Source: a virus. From it: 43,478 bases of DNA. The notes under the pieces were generated by a model. The model did not search any database, was not told the origin of the DNA, and worked only from the letters and a program-made list of their open reading frames with translations. The DNA is taken from positions 1 through 43,478 of the IMG/VR virus record IMGVR_UViG_3300005577_000013; one strand, given 5' to 3'. Position numbers and translations under genes: made by a program. Every line of letters starts with the position of its first letter. The stretch's first letter is position 1. Shown piece by piece: positions 1 to 43,478 of the stretch.

Positions 1-60
1 GCTCGCGGGCCAGCACCGTCCTTACCTGGTCGAGGTGGTTCCTGTAGATGTGCGCGTCGC
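1..60. repeat. 60-bp direct repeat of the window's last 60 bases
   Basis: Bases 1-60 are identical to 43419-43478. The repeat lies inside the ThyA-family gene, and the reading frame is continuous only when the two copies are merged. That indicates a circular or circularly permuted molecule with an assembly overlap, not a true 60-bp genomic terminal repeat. Confidence 0.97.
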
Positions 61-772
61 CGAGCTGGAAGACCAGGCGGCCGGGCGACATGAGCGTCTC
101 CTTGGCCAGCAATCGCTGCAGCAGGGCGTAGCCGGCGACGTCGAACGGCAGTCCGAGGAACAGGTCCACCGAACGCATGTCGACGCGCAGGTCGAGGTAC
201 AGGTCGTTCATGAGGCCCTGCCTGACGTAGCACTGGAACAGCACGTGGCACGGCGGCAGGCACATCTGGTCCAGCTCGCCGGGGTTCCAGGCCGTGACCA
301 GGTGGCGCCGGCCAAACGGATCGGCACTCAGGTCGTGTACCAGGCCCTTGAGCTGATCAGTGATCTTGAAGGCAGGCGCGTTGCCAGACAGCGCTTCCTT
401 CAGGCCGTCACCATGCGGCAGCGGAAGGTACGACCGCCACCGCCGCCACTGCACGCCGTAGATGCGGCCGAGCCATCCGGCAGCCTGCTTGTCGCCCCTG
501 GACGTCCAGTAGTCGGCCGTGCCGTTGCCGTCCCAGATCGAACAGCCGACCGAGTGGAACTGGTCGAGCGTGTCGAACCCGTGGAGGAAGGCTGACAGCT
601 CCGCCTTGACGCTTTCGAAGAACAGCTTCTTCGTGGTGAAGGCCGGGAACGATGTGCTGTTGTCGAACACCACCTGTGCCCCGAACACCGACAGCGTGCC
701 GACGCCGGTGCGGTCAGGCCGCTCCTCCCCGTGCTCCAGCACCCGCCGGAGGATCTTGTGCCATTCCTTCAT
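1..772 (-). CDS. Thymidylate synthase / dCMP hydroxymethylase family enzyme (5' part; continues at 43294-43478)
   Basis: This is the start and most of a 298-residue enzyme that crosses the circle junction; the remainder lies at 43294-43478. The ATG at 772 overlaps the upstream stop as ATGA. ThyA-family landmarks are visible: RTGVGT near the N-terminus, the nucleophile C175 in LPPCHVLFQ, MRSVD (phosphate Arg), GDAHIYRNH and a C-terminal HPAVKAPMNV. The residue that pairs with the pyrimidine ring, Asn177 in E. coli ThyA (LPFN), is Asp here (D211 in LPFD). T4 dCMP hydroxymethylase has Asp179 at this position. Family membership is certain. dCMP rather than dUMP as substrate, and methyl or hydroxymethyl transfer to C5 from methylene-tetrahydrofolate, are inferences. 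No gene symbol is given because thyA may be wrong. Confidence 0.93.
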   Translation of the reverse strand, partial: MKEWHKILRRVLEHGEERPDRTGVGTLSVFGAQVVFDNSTSFPAFTTKKLFFESVKAELSAFLHGFDTLDQFHSVGCSIWDGNGTADYWTSRGDKQAAGWLGRIYGVQWRRWRSYLPLPHGDGLKEALSGNAPAFKITDQLKGLVHDLSADPFGRRHLVTAWNPGELDQMCLPPCHVLFQCYVRQGLMNDLYLDLRVDMRSVDLFLGLPFDVAGYALLQRLLAKETLMSPGRLVFQLGDAHIYRNHLDQVRTVLARE

Positions 773-1020
773 TCTGCTTCCCTCACGAGTCTTTCAATGA
801 AGGCGATGAGCTTGACGCGTGCCAGCTCGGCCTCCGCTTCGATGATCGGAATGTCGGAGGGGTCGCCTCCGCCTTTCCACGAGTCGGCCACCTGCGCATC
901 GACGTGCTTCTTGATGAGCTCGCTAAGCTGGGCGGCCATTGGGCGACTCAGGCCGTGGACCACCTGAATGGTCTTTGCCGGCTTTGTCGCCACGGCCATA
1001 CCGTCTTGGCGGCGTCTCAC
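769..1020 (-). CDS. Small hypothetical protein (83 aa)
   Basis: No family recognised. The GTG start at 1020 overlaps the stop of the upstream DUF1599 gene as GTGA and has a GGGGAG ribosome-binding site 8 bases upstream. An ATG seven codons later (999) is poorer. The stop overlaps the ThyA-family start as ATGA, so the gene sits translationally coupled between the two nucleotide-metabolism genes. The protein looks helical and soluble, with a long acidic/hydrophobic C-terminal helix (EAEAELARVKLIAFIERLV). No Cys or transmembrane segment is visible. Confidence 0.75.
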   Translation of the reverse strand: MRRRQDGMAVATKPAKTIQVVHGLSRPMAAQLSELIKKHVDAQVADSWKGGGDPSDIPIIEAEAELARVKLIAFIERLVREAE

Positions 1021-1541
1021 TTCAGGTCTCCCCGGTCCATGCGCTCCACCAGGAAGGACGCGTAGTTGATGAGGTCCAGCGCCGTGTCGCGCAGGCCTTC
1101 GAAGTTCGGCTCGCCGCCGGCCTGCTGCTTCCGCACGAGGCTCACGGCCCGCTGCGCCTTGACGTGCAGCATGTGGACGTACGACGCCAGCCCAAACGGG
1201 AAGTAAGAGTCGCGGTCGGCCTCGAGGGCGGCGTTGGCCGACAGCCGGTTGCCCGCGGGTTGGTTGTAGTCCTGGCTCTTCTGGATCACCAGCAGCTGCG
1301 CGTCGGCCACCGCGCCGGTCGTACCGCCGCGGCGGGAGAGCTCGGCCAGCAGAGCCTTGGATTCGATCGCCCGTACGTCATAGGCTTCGACCGACGGGTG
1401 CTTTGTCTTGAGTACCCAGAGCAGGTCTTCCACCGGCGCGTCGAGCAGCTCGACCGCCACGGTACGGGGAGCCGGCGGGAAAGGCGGCGAAGCTGCACCT
1501 ACATTACTGTTCATCAGTTGATCTCCCAAAAGTCTTGTCAT
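1017..1541 (-). CDS. DUF1599 / Nmad1-like nucleotide-modification-associated protein
   Basis: The C-terminal half (about residues 70-165) has the look of DUF1599: a QKSQDYN-type motif, an FPFG segment, then helices reading KAQRAVSLV and GLRDTALDLINYASFLVE. DUF1599 was named nucleotide modification associated domain 1 because it occurs beside base-modifying enzymes in phages; its biochemistry is unsettled. The N-terminal 60 residues are Pro/Ala-rich and unassigned. An ATG at 1541 has GGAG 7 bases upstream. An ATG at 1514 with GGGAG 8 bases upstream is an equally good start, and would give a shorter N-terminus. A hairpin at 1560-1584 lies just upstream. The gene is followed, through one small gene, by the ThyA-family enzyme with the Asn-to-Asp change. 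Confidence 0.6.
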   Translation of the reverse strand: MTRLLGDQLMNSNVGAASPPFPPAPRTVAVELLDAPVEDLLWVLKTKHPSVEAYDVRAIESKALLAELSRRGGTTGAVADAQLLVIQKSQDYNQPAGNRLSANAALEADRDSYFPFGLASYVHMLHVKAQRAVSLVRKQQAGGEPNFEGLRDTALDLINYASFLVERMDRGDLK

Positions 1542-1559
1542 CTTCACTCTCCAAGTAAA

Positions 1560-5516: not shown

Positions 5517-6014
5517 TCAGCTCTGAGGCATCAAGTCGTAGATGCTGTAGGCCCCGTCTGTGGCCTCTAGCCAGTACACCGGCTTGCCGTGCTGGTGGGC
5601 ATACATGATCTCGCTGTTGGTTGACTCGCCGGTGTAGAAGCCCTTGTTCAGGACCACCACGACGTCGGCAAGGTCGATCTTCCGCTTGTGCAGCACGTCC
5701 AGCTCGGCCTTCTCCTCCGGCGAGATGTCGGAGAACAGGCCTTGCGCTCGCTCCTCCGGCGTAGCACGGGAGAAGTGTCCGACGGACAGGACGATGTAGC
5801 CGGCCAGCGTCAGGTCGGCGTTGGCCTTCTCAAATTCCTCCTTGAACCGGGTGCTGCCGCACAGCACGGCCACCTTGGGCATCTCGGTCGAAGCCTCCAT
5901 GGCCCGCGCCGCGTTGGCCACGGCATTGAGGTGGTCGCCCATGTCGTGCTTCGACACGACGAGCCAGGCGAGCGTGCGGGCCAGCAGGTTCTGGGCGTAC
6001 TTGGGTGCTTTCAT
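5517..6014 (-). CDS. Nucleoside 2-deoxyribosyltransferase-like protein (165 aa)
   Basis: Residues 46-160 show the fold of the nucleoside 2-deoxyribosyltransferase superfamily: VAVLCGSTRFKEEFEKAN (phosphate/sugar loop), a central LHKRKIDLADVVVVLNKGFYTGESTNSEIMYAHQHGKPV with the family's Asp and Glu residues, and a closing strand. Relatives exchange or cleave the base-sugar bond of (deoxy)nucleosides or nucleotides. The 45-residue helical N-terminus is additional. AAGGAG 7 bases before the ATG at 6014 supports this start. In this nucleotide-metabolism context it could recycle host nucleotides. Substrate and reaction cannot be read from the sequence. Confidence 0.75.
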   Translation of the reverse strand: MKAPKYAQNLLARTLAWLVVSKHDMGDHLNAVANAARAMEASTEMPKVAVLCGSTRFKEEFEKANADLTLAGYIVLSVGHFSRATPEERAQGLFSDISPEEKAELDVLHKRKIDLADVVVVLNKGFYTGESTNSEIMYAHQHGKPVYWLEATDGAYSIYDLMPQS

Positions 6015-13719: not shown

Positions 13720-13801
13720 TGGTGATCACGGCAGGATTCGAACCTGCAAACGGCGTTCCCCTGTGGGGATTAGCCGTGCCTTGCCATTCAGCCACGTGAT
13801 C
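13720..13801 (-). tRNA. tRNA with encoded CCA and an abnormal anticodon arm
   Basis: Leftward, the acceptor GATCACG pairs with CGTGATC, followed by discriminator A and an encoded CCA. The D-arm (GCT...GGC with GG in the loop and A14) and T-arm (GCAGG-TTCGAAT-CCTGC) are canonical. The anticodon region is not: ACGGC pairs with GCCGT around an 18-base loop, inside which TCCCC and GGGGA can pair around ACA. No placement gives a 5-bp stem with a 7-base loop and U33, so I assign no amino acid. Total length is 82 nt including CCA. It may be a tRNA with an insertion, a decoy, or a pseudogene whose ends are under selection. Confidence 0.8.
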
Positions 13802-14785: not shown

Positions 14786-15756
14786 GACCCATCTCCGTCA
14801 CAGTCGGGGCACTCGATCTCCTCTTCCACGTTCAGGTGGTTGAGCGTCAGCACCTTGCCCGTGGCGTTGCAGGTCGTGCAGCCTGGCAGCGCATCCGCCG
14901 GAGGACGCGGGCCGCCATTCTTTGCAGCGGTCTCAAACTCTTTGATCTCCTCGCAGTCGCACACACCAGTCTCTTCAGCCGGGTGCACCACGTTGCAGGC
15001 AGGATGGTGGCCATGCAGGAAGGCAGCCAATCCTGCAGTTACGCGTGCCTCGGCCTCCTTGGTCGGATGCTGCAGGTCAGGGTCCTTGTGCCCAGTCATG
15101 CAGTACAGCGACTTGGGCTCGCCGCACTGAGTGCACTGGTCGTTGTCGCCGCTGACTGTGCGGACCGCATGCATCGGGCCGTCTGCAGGCGACGCAACCC
15201 AGCGCGTCTCGACCAGCCTGCCGTCCACCATGCGCATGTCCAGGCCGGCGCTGTCGCCCAGCAGCACCATCTTCCTCTCGGTGCGCGCACCTTCGGCCCG
15301 GGTGATCATGCCCTTCAGCCGCTCCTTTCCCTCGAGCGTCTCCACCAGGTGCTCGAGCGGAGGCACGAAGGCCTCGGCACCGAGGTGGGCGTAATCCATG
15401 TTGCGCCGCCGCGAGAGGAACTCTTCAACCGCGTGCGTGCCCTGGTCGTCCATCATGTCGGCGCCCGGCACGTCGCGGAAGGACAGGCCGTCGGCAGCGA
15501 CCACGGGCGGTGGCGTCCAGCCCAGCGACACGAGAGCCCTGTGCAGCTCGTCTTCGATCTTGGAGTTCAGGTTGTAGACGCTGGTGATGCCCATCGTCTT
15601 CACCACGACTGCGAGGCCCATCGCCTCGGCGCAGATCTTCGCGTAGCCGCGCCACTTCTCCTTCAACGCCTCGGGCTTGTCGTCCCAGGTAGTGACCACT
15701 TCGTATACGGCGGCTCTCAATGCCTGGGCGCCCTTGTCTATCTGTTCGGGGGTCAT
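14782..15756 (-). CDS. Unknown protein with C-terminal DnaJ-type zinc motif (324 aa)
   Basis: No whole-length family recognised. Residues 1-80 are helical, 120-200 mixed. From about 205 there are scattered Cys pairs (CTQCGEPKSLYC; ACNVVH...CDCEE), and the end has GCTTCNATG...ECPDCDGDG, two CxxCxGxG repeats exactly as in the DnaJ zinc finger. The next gene is a J-domain protein with the same motif, so the two may form one chaperone-like complex. The ATG at 15756 has AGGAG 8 bases upstream. It is the first gene after the promoter at 15807-15843. Confidence 0.75.
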   Translation of the reverse strand: MTPEQIDKGAQALRAAVYEVVTTWDDKPEALKEKWRGYAKICAEAMGLAVVVKTMGITSVYNLNSKIEDELHRALVSLGWTPPPVVAADGLSFRDVPGADMMDDQGTHAVEEFLSRRRNMDYAHLGAEAFVPPLEHLVETLEGKERLKGMITRAEGARTERKMVLLGDSAGLDMRMVDGRLVETRWVASPADGPMHAVRTVSGDNDQCTQCGEPKSLYCMTGHKDPDLQHPTKEAEARVTAGLAAFLHGHHPACNVVHPAEETGVCDCEEIKEFETAAKNGGPRPPADALPGCTTCNATGKVLTLNHLNVEEEIECPDCDGDGS

Positions 15757-21142: not shown

Positions 21143-22726
21143 ATGGCGAAGCGATACCGTCTCCCCCTCTACGCCCAGACCGTCAACGTGCCTTCTGGCC
21201 GGGTCGACGCCACGCCCGACGGCTGGCTGACACCGAAGGACGCCAACCAGGGCACCGAGCTCGAGGCCCTGGGCGCCATGCTCGACGACACCGACACGCC
21301 GGCCATCCCCGGCCCGGTGACCTACGTCGACGGCGCGCTGATGGACCCGCAGGGCAACCAGATCACCGTGGCCGCGGCCTCCGGTGTGCAAGCCCGGCGC
21401 CTGGTGCTGATGGGCGACTCGCTCAAGGCGCTGGAGTGCTGCCTGCCCACCGCGGACACGCCGATCTACGGCAGCCCGTTCTCGGTGCCGCAGTCGCAGT
21501 TCAACCCGCGCGGCGCGATCAACTGGCTCAACGCCATGTGCGGCCAGCCCTGGACCCTGGTCGGCGCGCGCGGCGTGTCCGGCGAGAACTCCATCCAGAT
21601 CCGCGCGCGGTGGAACGACGTGGTTGCCGACAACCCGGACGATGTCTTCATGGACGCCGGCCGCAACGACGTGACGCAGCTGACGACCACGTACTCCAAC
21701 AACGTGGCCTTGTGCTTCAGTACCGTGGTGACCAACGTGACCTGGATGTGGGACCAGGCCGCAAAGAAAGGCGTCCGCGTCTTCTACGAGTCGATCTCGC
21801 CGAAGCAGACAAGCTCCGGCGAAGGCACGCCCGAGAACACCCTGGTCGTGCGTCTCAACACCGAGCTGAAGCGCCTGGCCACGCAGCGCAAGAACGTGGT
21901 CTTCATCGACACGTTCTCGGTGCTGGTCGACCCGACGATTTTCCAGGGCTACGCGATCGCCTCCCTGTATGTCGACACCACGCACTGGGCCACCGGCGGC
22001 GCGGTCGTGCAGGCCCTGCTCTTCGTGGCCATGGTCTCGAAGTACGTCACGCCGAACCCGACCCTGGTGTCCAGCCAGAACGACTGCTTCCAGAAGGACA
22101 CGTCCAGCTCGAACGTGCTCTCCGCCACGCAGGGCCTGATGCAGGGCACGACGGACTCCGCCGTGGGCACCGGCACCGCCGGCACGAAGCAGGCATCGAT
22201 GACCGTCAGCCGCGTGGCAGGCTCCGGCACCGCCACCTACTCGGTCGTGGCCCGTGGCCCGGTCGCGGCGCCGATCGGTGACGGCGTGACGCAGCGTGGC
22301 AACGCCCTGCGTCAGGTCATCGCCTCCGCGGTCGCCGGCGAGATCCACCAGATCTCCCTGCCCGTCACGTCAGGCCCGACGCTGGCGCAGCTCGTCGCCG
22401 GTTCGTTCCTGCAGGGCGAGTCGCTAGTGCAGGTGTCCGGCTCGTCTGGTCTGATCAGCGTGGCCTGTGAGGTGGTGATCGCCTACACCGGCGGCTCCCC
22501 GACCGGCCCGACCCGCTCGCGCACGCTGTACCCGGTCGTGACCACGTTCGACGGCACGGACACCCTGAGCTACACGGCGCAGCTCAAGACGCCACCCGTG
22601 CAGATCCCGGCCAACGCCTCGGCGCTGACGAGCATCACGATCAACTGGTACGCCTTCTTCAGCAAGGCCGGCGGCGCCACGATCGACTACTCGTGCGCCT
22701 CCATCCGTAAGGTGACCGCACCGTGA
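21143..22726 (+). CDS. SGNH/GDSL hydrolase, probable virion esterase (527 aa)
   Basis: Block I is VLMGDSL (S93), block III AGRND (G173, N175) and block V VDTTHW (D278, H281), so the Ser-Asp-His triad and oxyanion residues of the SGNH fold are present between about 85 and 290. Residues 1-80 resemble a phage structural N-terminus with a DPQGNQI strand turn. Residues 310-527 are Ser/Thr/Gly/Val-rich beta sequence typical of tail appendages. The enzyme probably deacetylates or cleaves a surface polysaccharide during adsorption. Its position, between terminase and portal, is unusual. GGAGG precedes the ATG. Confidence 0.85.
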   Translation: MAKRYRLPLYAQTVNVPSGRVDATPDGWLTPKDANQGTELEALGAMLDDTDTPAIPGPVTYVDGALMDPQGNQITVAAASGVQARRLVLMGDSLKALECCLPTADTPIYGSPFSVPQSQFNPRGAINWLNAMCGQPWTLVGARGVSGENSIQIRARWNDVVADNPDDVFMDAGRNDVTQLTTTYSNNVALCFSTVVTNVTWMWDQAAKKGVRVFYESISPKQTSSGEGTPENTLVVRLNTELKRLATQRKNVVFIDTFSVLVDPTIFQGYAIASLYVDTTHWATGGAVVQALLFVAMVSKYVTPNPTLVSSQNDCFQKDTSSSNVLSATQGLMQGTTDSAVGTGTAGTKQASMTVSRVAGSGTATYSVVARGPVAAPIGDGVTQRGNALRQVIASAVAGEIHQISLPVTSGPTLAQLVAGSFLQGESLVQVSGSSGLISVACEVVIAYTGGSPTGPTRSRTLYPVVTTFDGTDTLSYTAQLKTPPVQIPANASALTSITINWYAFFSKAGGATIDYSCASIRKVTAP

Positions 22727-42016: not shown

Positions 42017-42547
42017 TCATTTCTTCGAGGCGTACGGCGTGCCTCGATACTTTAGCTCCCAGGGAAGATCGTGGTTGGACCGTGGCAGCCTTTCGACCGT
42101 CCTTCCGGTGCCGCGCCACAGCTCCATCGGGGCAAGGTCCGTGTGCTCCTCCAGGAAGACGATCCTGGTGCACATGGTGCCGAGCAGCAGCTTCGTGCAG
42201 GCCTTGCACGGCGAGAGCGTCACGTAGGCCGTGACGATCAGGTCCGGCTCCCTGCACTGCACCAGGGCGTTCTGCTCCGCGTGGATGGCCTCGCAGCTGT
42301 CCTGGCCTGGCGGCAGGTCGTGGCCCTTGCAGGCATGCGGGAAGTACTGCAGCTCGCCTGGCCTGGCAATGCCAAAGCCTTCGTTGCAGTGAGGCTGTCC
42401 GCGGGCGACGCCGTTATAGCCGACCGACAGCACGCGGCCATGGGCGTCGGCCAGGACGCAGCCCACCCCGCGACGGATGCAGGTGGTCCTGAGGGCCGCC
42501 ACCGCCGCCAGCGACATCAGGTACTCGTCGAGGGATGGGCGGCTCAC
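42017..42547 (-). CDS. dCMP deaminase (176 aa)
   Basis: Converts dCMP to dUMP. The Zn site is CEAIHAEQNAL (H89, E91) and LSPCKACTKLL (C114, C117). GVGCVLADAHGRVLSVGYNG gives the family start. An insertion (HCNEGFGIARPGELQYFPHACKGHDLPPGQD) adds Cys/His typical of phage dCMP deaminases that bind a second Zn. Last gene of the leftward unit, just downstream of the MazG-like gene. In a phage with a dCMP-modifying ThyA homolog it competes for the same substrate or provides dUMP for dTMP. Confidence 0.93.
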   Translation of the reverse strand: MSRPSLDEYLMSLAAVAALRTTCIRRGVGCVLADAHGRVLSVGYNGVARGQPHCNEGFGIARPGELQYFPHACKGHDLPPGQDSCEAIHAEQNALVQCREPDLIVTAYVTLSPCKACTKLLLGTMCTRIVFLEEHTDLAPMELWRGTGRTVERLPRSNHDLPWELKYRGTPYASKK

Positions 42548-42549
42548 GG

Positions 42550-43257
42550 TCAGAGCCCCTCGGCCGGCTTCACAGTGCCGGGGTCAACGCCGTAGACGAA
42601 CGCGCGCTGCGCCCGTTCCAGGTCCGTCTGTTCGGCAGACGCCGGGCGCGGGCCGTAGACCAACGCCCGGTCCGCCGTGACGAAGGTGGGCACCGGCTTG
42701 CCATCGTCCGGCCGCACCAGGTCGCCGTGGTCCGGCGCCTTCCAGCCTTCCGGCTTGACGACGTCCAGCGTCGACTTGCGGGTGGAACGGGCGTCGTATG
42801 CACTGCTGGCCCGCACCTTCCGCATGTTCGCGTCCTGCACGCGGTCCCAGCCCTGCTGCCACGGCAGGCCCATCATATGCGCCGTGCCAAAGGCGACGTA
42901 GGCCAGGTCAAGCAGGGCGTCGAACGCCTTGTTCAGGTCGCCGTCCAAATAGGCCTCGCCGAACTCGTCCAGCTCCTCCTGCAGGAACCGGGTGCGAAAC
43001 TGCATGGCCTGCAGGTCCAGCCACGCGGGCACCGGAGAGGTCGGCACGTCGAACTTGAAGTGGAAGTCGGTGACGTCGTCGAAGTTGGACTGGCTGAGGC
43101 GGCCGATCGATGCTTCGGCCACGTTGTGTGCCTCGATCGGGTCGCCATTGGCATGACAGAAACCGTTGCAGGACAGGCAAGCGGCGATGCGGCGGGAATA
43201 GGCGGCAAGCTCGCCGTCGGGCAACGGGCCGCGGTTGATGCGAACGAGGAAGTGCAT
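42550..43257 (-). CDS. MazG-like/HisE-like all-alpha NTP pyrophosphohydrolase (235 aa)
   Basis: The core (about 85-170) has FLQEELDEFGEAYLDGDLNKAFDALLDLAYVAFGTAH, with metal-binding E94/E95/E98 and D113/D117, followed by NMRKVRA...STLDVVKPEGW, as in phage phosphoribosyl-ATP/MazG-type enzymes. They hydrolyse (d)NTPs to (d)NMP; the T4 dCTPase gp56 is in the same structural superfamily. The N-terminus has a Cys cluster (C27-x2-C30-x3-C34) of unknown use. AAGGAG precedes the ATG at 43257. It lies immediately downstream of the ThyA-family gene. Confidence 0.85.
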   Translation of the reverse strand: MHFLVRINRGPLPDGELAAYSRRIAACLSCNGFCHANGDPIEAHNVAEASIGRLSQSNFDDVTDFHFKFDVPTSPVPAWLDLQAMQFRTRFLQEELDEFGEAYLDGDLNKAFDALLDLAYVAFGTAHMMGLPWQQGWDRVQDANMRKVRASSAYDARSTRKSTLDVVKPEGWKAPDHGDLVRPDDGKPVPTFVTADRALVYGPRPASAEQTDLERAQRAFVYGVDPGTVKPAEGL

Positions 43258-43293: not shown

Positions 43294-43478
43294 TCAGACG
43301 TTCATGGGCGCCTTGACGGCGGGGTGGTGCGCGTAGTCCACCAGCGAGGCGTGGTGGGGCTTGAAGTTGAAGGGCGACGTCTCCTCTTCGTCGAAGCGGA
43401 GCTGAGGCGGGTCGAAGGGCTCGCGGGCCAGCACCGTCCTTACCTGGTCGAGGTGGTTCCTGTAGATGTGCGCGTCGC
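43294..43478 (-). CDS. C-terminal part of the ThyA-family enzyme (continues from 1-772)
   Basis: Once the 60-bp overlap is merged, this gives the final residues: RTVLAREPFDPPQLRF, an acidic stretch, SPFNFKPHHASLVDYAHHPAVKAPMNV and TGA at 43294. HPxVKAPMxV is the family C-terminus that closes over the folate. The full protein is 298 residues. Confidence 0.93.
   Translation of the reverse strand, partial: DAHIYRNHLDQVRTVLAREPFDPPQLRFDEEETSPFNFKPHHASLVDYAHHPAVKAPMNV
43419..43478. repeat. Second copy of the 60-bp terminal overlap
   Basis: Identical to bases 1-60; see that entry. Confidence 0.97.

Follow-up and report, generated by a model that had tools for sequence, protein, structure and literature searches.

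The IMG/VR virus record IMGVR_UViG_3300005577_000013 (43,478 nucleotides, analysed over its whole length and referred to here as the window) encodes a thymidylate synthase (TS)-like protein, and the question raised by this locus is which pyrimidine nucleotide the enzyme accepts and what product it makes. The translation of positions 772 to 2 (minus strand) matches the thymidylate synthase family, PF00303, with an E-value of 2.4e-70 and a score of 237.2 bits, above the curated cut-off of 24.3, which places the protein in the thymidylate synthase superfamily. Codons 1–257 occupy positions 1–772 (minus strand; start codon at 772), and the 3' end of the gene, with residues 258–298, including the tail KAPMNV, and the stop codon, is located at 43294–43418 (minus strand). 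A terminal direct repeat of 60 bp (positions 1–60 and 43419–43478, identical; no strand applies) closes the contig as a circle, and the open reading frame read across the junction encodes a full-length protein of 298 amino acids ending in HPAVKAPMNV. The gene is not truncated; its apparent break results from the contig ends falling inside the gene. A megablast search started with positions 15100–40000 of the window found no relative among GenBank phages.

The original prediction pointed to a change of the TS motif LPFN to LPFD, with the catalytic residues intact, and both observations are confirmed in the translation. The altered residue, Asp211 (codon 140–142, minus strand; GTC on the plus strand, GAC on the minus strand), aligns with Asn177 of Escherichia coli TS and with Asp179 of the T4 dCMP hydroxymethylase, so that the Asn by which dUMP-specific TS is recognized (position 177 in E. 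coli TS numbering) is Asp here. The catalytic Cys175 (in PPCH; codon 248–250, minus strand) and the motifs MRSVD and GDAHIY are all unaltered.

The Asp is present in 18 of the 167 non-identical loci compared, which cluster on the tree, and Asn in the other 149; all eight of the nearest IMG/VR relatives (L003–L009 and L028, about 48–60% identity) carry Asp as well. Because of this distribution, Asp211 is neither a one-off nor a sequencing error. A genome scan turned up chromosomal enzymes of the ordinary Asn type plus a single locus of the Asp type (L129); it did not indicate a host. The penultimate tail residue (codon 43300–43302 in the window) is Asn or Ser in 18 of 18 Asp-type loci and mostly Ala in the Asn-type ones, and possibly represents a co-varying feature of dCMP methylases. 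In one of the relatives, L028 (9086–10477), the TS gene has an in-frame insert of about 170 residues that separates the N-terminal from the C-terminal part of TS; by eye, it resembles a homing-endonuclease-type domain and is a candidate intein or in-frame intron. A second viral TS-like group (L021 and L023–L027) carries the motif LPSD, has Phe at position 147 and a TS-like tail, and shows Leu at the position that precedes the catalytic Cys by three residues (hereinafter Cys-3); in most of these loci, genes for a pyrophosphohydrolase and a DUF1599-like protein adjoin the TS gene; these proteins are candidates for additional dCMP methylases.

Analysis of the genomic context reveals three genes with predicted roles in nucleotide metabolism or modification. 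Across the junction, the TS-like gene is followed by the genes for a MazG/PRA-PH-type nucleotide pyrophosphohydrolase, predicted to convert dCTP to dCMP (42550–43257, minus strand; PF01503, E-value 1.2e-11, 45.3 bits against a cut-off of 21.3), in which the metal-site acidic residues E95, E98, D113 and D117 are invariant, and for a protein of the dCMP deaminase family (42017–42547, minus strand; PF00383, E-value 2.9e-17; PHROG 174), which aligns with dCMP deaminases over the zinc-binding motifs HAE and PCxxC and the allosteric motif GYNG. Two genes upstream of the TS-like gene is a gene for a protein similar to nucleotide-modification-associated domain 1 (DUF1599, Nmad1; 1017–1547, minus strand; PHROG 18404). 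The match of this protein to the Pfam DUF1599 profile is weak (E-value 0.024; 15.4 bits, below the curated cut-off of 25), and a fold search with its structural model (pLDDT 62) returned no significant match. A further protein, encoded at 5517–6014 (minus strand), weakly matches DUF4406 and proteins like nucleoside 2-deoxyribosyltransferase and might act on nucleotides.

This neighborhood tracks the Asp. In counts that treat related phages as separate loci, the MazG/PRA-PH gene adjoins 16 of 17 Asp-type viral TS loci and the Nmad1-like gene 11 of 17 (profile searches), and the deaminase gene 12 of 17 (tblastn), compared to 0 of 70 Asn-type loci for each of the three; anywhere in the record, PRA-PH is found in all 7 records of the Asp type and in 1 of the 13 of the Asn type. 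The independent Asp/Asn pairs, namely one on supported branches, which goes in the expected direction, and four on the best tree, are too few for significance. The neighbors agree with the co-occurrence network of MetaGPA, in which TS, PRA-PH and dCMP deaminase domains occur together in cytosine-modified contigs, and the two residues most strongly linked to cytosine modification of phage contigs are those at positions 177 (Asp) and 147 (PMC8670742). The window resembles the MetaGPA loci in Asp177 and in the two co-occurring domains but differs from them in retaining His at position 147, the other top differential residue; also in contrast to the MetaGPA contigs, no carbamoyltransferase was found among the window genes scanned.

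The enzyme might still be a thymidylate synthase that methylates dUMP and merely tolerates the Asp. Most of its other tabulated active-site residues are indeed TS-like in the alignment, including His147 (E. coli TS numbering), which is kept in dUMP enzymes and altered in the dCMP enzymes of the T4 and Xp12 types. However, Asp is the fixed state throughout a divergent clade and goes together with nucleotide-modification neighbors, and the equivalent substitution in TS favors dCMP and leads to its methylation, at least in the literature as cited in PMC8670742, so that a dUMP enzyme appears highly improbable. Given that the Asp occupies the established U/C switch, is kept throughout the clade and co-occurs with a nucleotide-modification operon, the originally proposed dCMP substrate is well supported as a prediction from sequence comparison.

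Whether a methyl or a hydroxymethyl group would be added to dCMP was left open in the original prediction, which drew a parallel with T4. The T4 signature of hydroxymethylation consists of Asp at Cys-3 and a nearby Ser/Tyr pair, along with the missing C-terminal tail, and replacement of this Asp in T4 (D145N) abolishes activity (PMC6400193). In the alignment, Asp at Cys-3 is found in SPO1 (a dUMP hydroxymethylase), T4, Xp15, AXL3, PW916, ctUtU524 and HTVC200P, whereas the window enzyme (Leu172, codon 257–259, minus strand) and E. coli TS have Leu, and the DLP4-type enzymes have Asn. As in T4, the TS tail is missing in SPO1. The third element of the signature places Ser or Thr two positions ahead of the catalytic Tyr; in the present alignment, the T4 Ser falls outside that column. 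The TS-like enzymes of AXL3 (L031), PW916 (L032) and ctUtU524 (L033), which carry Asp at both position 177 and Cys-3, are predicted to be dCMP hydroxymethylases.

Under the T4 parallel, the window enzyme would be a gp42-like dCMP hydroxymethylase that supplies 5-hydroxymethyl-dCMP for DNA. The two proteins share the TS family, the catalytic Cys and Asp at the U/C switch (177/179), and the hydroxymethylase-type phages AXL3 and Xp15 likewise have neighboring genes for a pyrophosphohydrolase and a deaminase; the deaminase, therefore, is no guide to the product. The window enzyme, however, has neither Asp nor Glu at Cys-3 and keeps the TS tail, compared to Asp145, Thr147 and no C-terminal tail in gp42, and in a maximum-likelihood tree of 68 rows, it falls in the E. 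coli TS branch, away from T4, Xp15, SPO1 and AXL3. Accordingly, of the T4 parallel, the part that concerns dCMP stands, and T4-like hydroxymethylation is unlikely. Because of Leu172 at Cys-3 and the retained tail, 5-methyl-dCMP is favored over 5-hydroxymethyl-dCMP as the predicted product.

Closer parallels for a dCMP methylase appear to be offered by the engineered Asn-to-Asp mutants of TS and by phage Xp12. Since it retains His147, the window enzyme resembles the mutants N177D (E. coli) and N229D (Lactobacillus casei), in which a single specificity site is changed in an ordinary TS background, and is unlike the T4- and Xp12-type enzymes; it differs from the mutants in that its Asp is natural and fixed in a clade and its penultimate tail residue belongs to the Asn/Ser type instead of the usual Ala. 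A modest model of the window enzyme (pLDDT 68) has the PDB entry 1njc (N229D with dCMP) among its best structural hits. As for Xp12, 5-methylcytosine replaces all cytosine in its DNA, and a folate-dependent dCMP methyltransferase is induced in infected cells (PMC8543423).

In our comparisons, the Xp12 type is represented by its close relatives DLP4 and AXL1, in which the genes for the pyrophosphohydrolase, TS, deaminase and dihydrofolate reductase (DHFR) are consecutive. The module of these phages (Bosavirus/Pamexvirus: Xp12, AXL1, DLP4, PaMx28) and the window share the pyrophosphohydrolase, the Nmad1-like domain, the TS-like enzyme and the deaminase, and the DLP4 and AXL1 enzymes, like that of the window, have Asp at the U/C switch without Asp at Cys-3. 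The DLP4 pyrophosphohydrolase is a fusion, its N-terminal half matching the window product of 42550–43257 at 37% and its C-terminal half that of 1017–1547 at 45%; hence two genes in the window correspond to one fused protein in the Xp12 relatives. The relatives also encode DHFR, which was not found in the window.

The TS-like enzymes themselves, in contrast, belong to different lineages. The window enzyme is part of an 11-row, all-Asp clade of enzymes from uncultivated phages (support 95/88) inside the branch with E. coli TS, whereas the Xp12-type group forms a separate branch (support 100/100) and shows Asn at Cys-3 and Pro147 and lacks the TS-like KAPxxV tail; in the window, Leu and His occupy these two positions and the tail is retained. 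Forcing the window clade and the Xp12 type into one clade is weakly rejected (AU test, p 0.04); the AU test does not reject one common origin of all Asp enzymes that carry the tail (p 0.12). The separation of the window clade from the Xp12 type on the tree, together with the former test, suggests that Asp was gained separately in the window clade, and the window enzyme apparently represents a lineage separate from both the T4 and the Xp12 enzymes.

Taken together, these observations are best compatible with a dCMP C5-methylase that evolved in the ordinary TS branch; probably, the resulting 5-methyl-dCTP enters the phage DNA and possibly also yields thymidylate by deamination. From the observed sequence, conservation, gene neighborhood and phylogenetic place, we infer the enzymatic steps and the DNA content as follows. 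Cys175 would attack C6 of dCMP, and Asp211, which replaces the Asn of TS, would read the amino/N3 edge of cytosine. The one-carbon unit would come from methylene-tetrahydrofolate (THF) and the hydride from THF, in a pocket shut by the C-terminal tail, giving 5-methyl-dCMP and dihydrofolate (DHF). The MazG-type enzyme would cleave dCTP, both supplying dCMP and lowering the amount of unmodified dCTP; 5-methyl-dCMP would be phosphorylated, probably by host kinases, and then take the place of dC in phage DNA, which should thereby resist many cytosine-sensitive nucleases. The deaminase would divert some of the dCMP, or of the 5-methyl-dC nucleotides, to thymidylate.

In searches of the window, no second ThyA or ThyX, no DNA-C5 methyltransferase, no DHFR and no gene of the dTMP kinase (thymidylate kinase) family were found; the regeneration of THF from DHF and the kinase step on 5-methyl-dCMP would therefore be left to the host or to unrecognized genes. 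A search for Tet/JBP gave no match in the window and none in the controls either, so that this negative result carries no weight. The window also contains a single tRNA gene (13720–13801, minus strand), identified by ARAGORN as tRNA-Cys with the unusual anticodon ACA and matched in Rfam as well, and, between the terminase and portal genes, a gene for a protein with a GDSL-type lipase/acylhydrolase domain (21143–22726, plus strand).

The deaminase allows a different fate for the methylated nucleotide, namely that 5-methyl-dCMP is only an intermediate that is deaminated to dTMP, leaving ordinary cytosine in the DNA. The deaminase gene adjoins or lies near the TS gene across most of the clade, searches of the window gave no other TS, and the deaminase family acts on 5-methyl-dCMP, the Xp12 enzyme being reported to convert 5-methyl-dCTP to dTTP (PMC12088426). 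The Xp12 deaminase reportedly contacts the 5-methyl group through an aromatic residue, W128, which the window protein shares; it is also present in hydroxymethylase-type phages, so it is not discriminating. A purely intermediate role, however, leaves the pyrophosphohydrolase and the Nmad1-like gene unexplained, and Xp12 combines deamination with full substitution by 5-methylcytosine, which makes this fate quite unlikely compared with incorporation of the methylated nucleotide into the DNA.

The kind of pathway predicted here is already known from Xp12, and the window enzyme would be a variant thereof. It is conceivable, albeit doubtful, that in this clade, separately from the T4 and Xp12 enzyme lineages, an ordinary TS altered at essentially one specificity residue took over the Xp12-type role, such that the phage obtains its cytosine, as 5-methylcytosine, and part of its thymine, by deamination of a 5-methyl-dC nucleotide, via a common methylated precursor. 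If the proposed reading is true, cytosine-methylated phage DNA arose more than once through re-tuning of TS at the very residue altered in laboratory mutants, and the partner enzymes stayed the same across the separate origins. The comparison also yields a sequence rule, in which residue 177 would determine the choice of the base, and the Cys-3 residue together with the tail, whether methyl or hydroxymethyl is added; such a rule could predict modified DNA in uncultivated phages whose enzyme is called thyA by automatic annotation.
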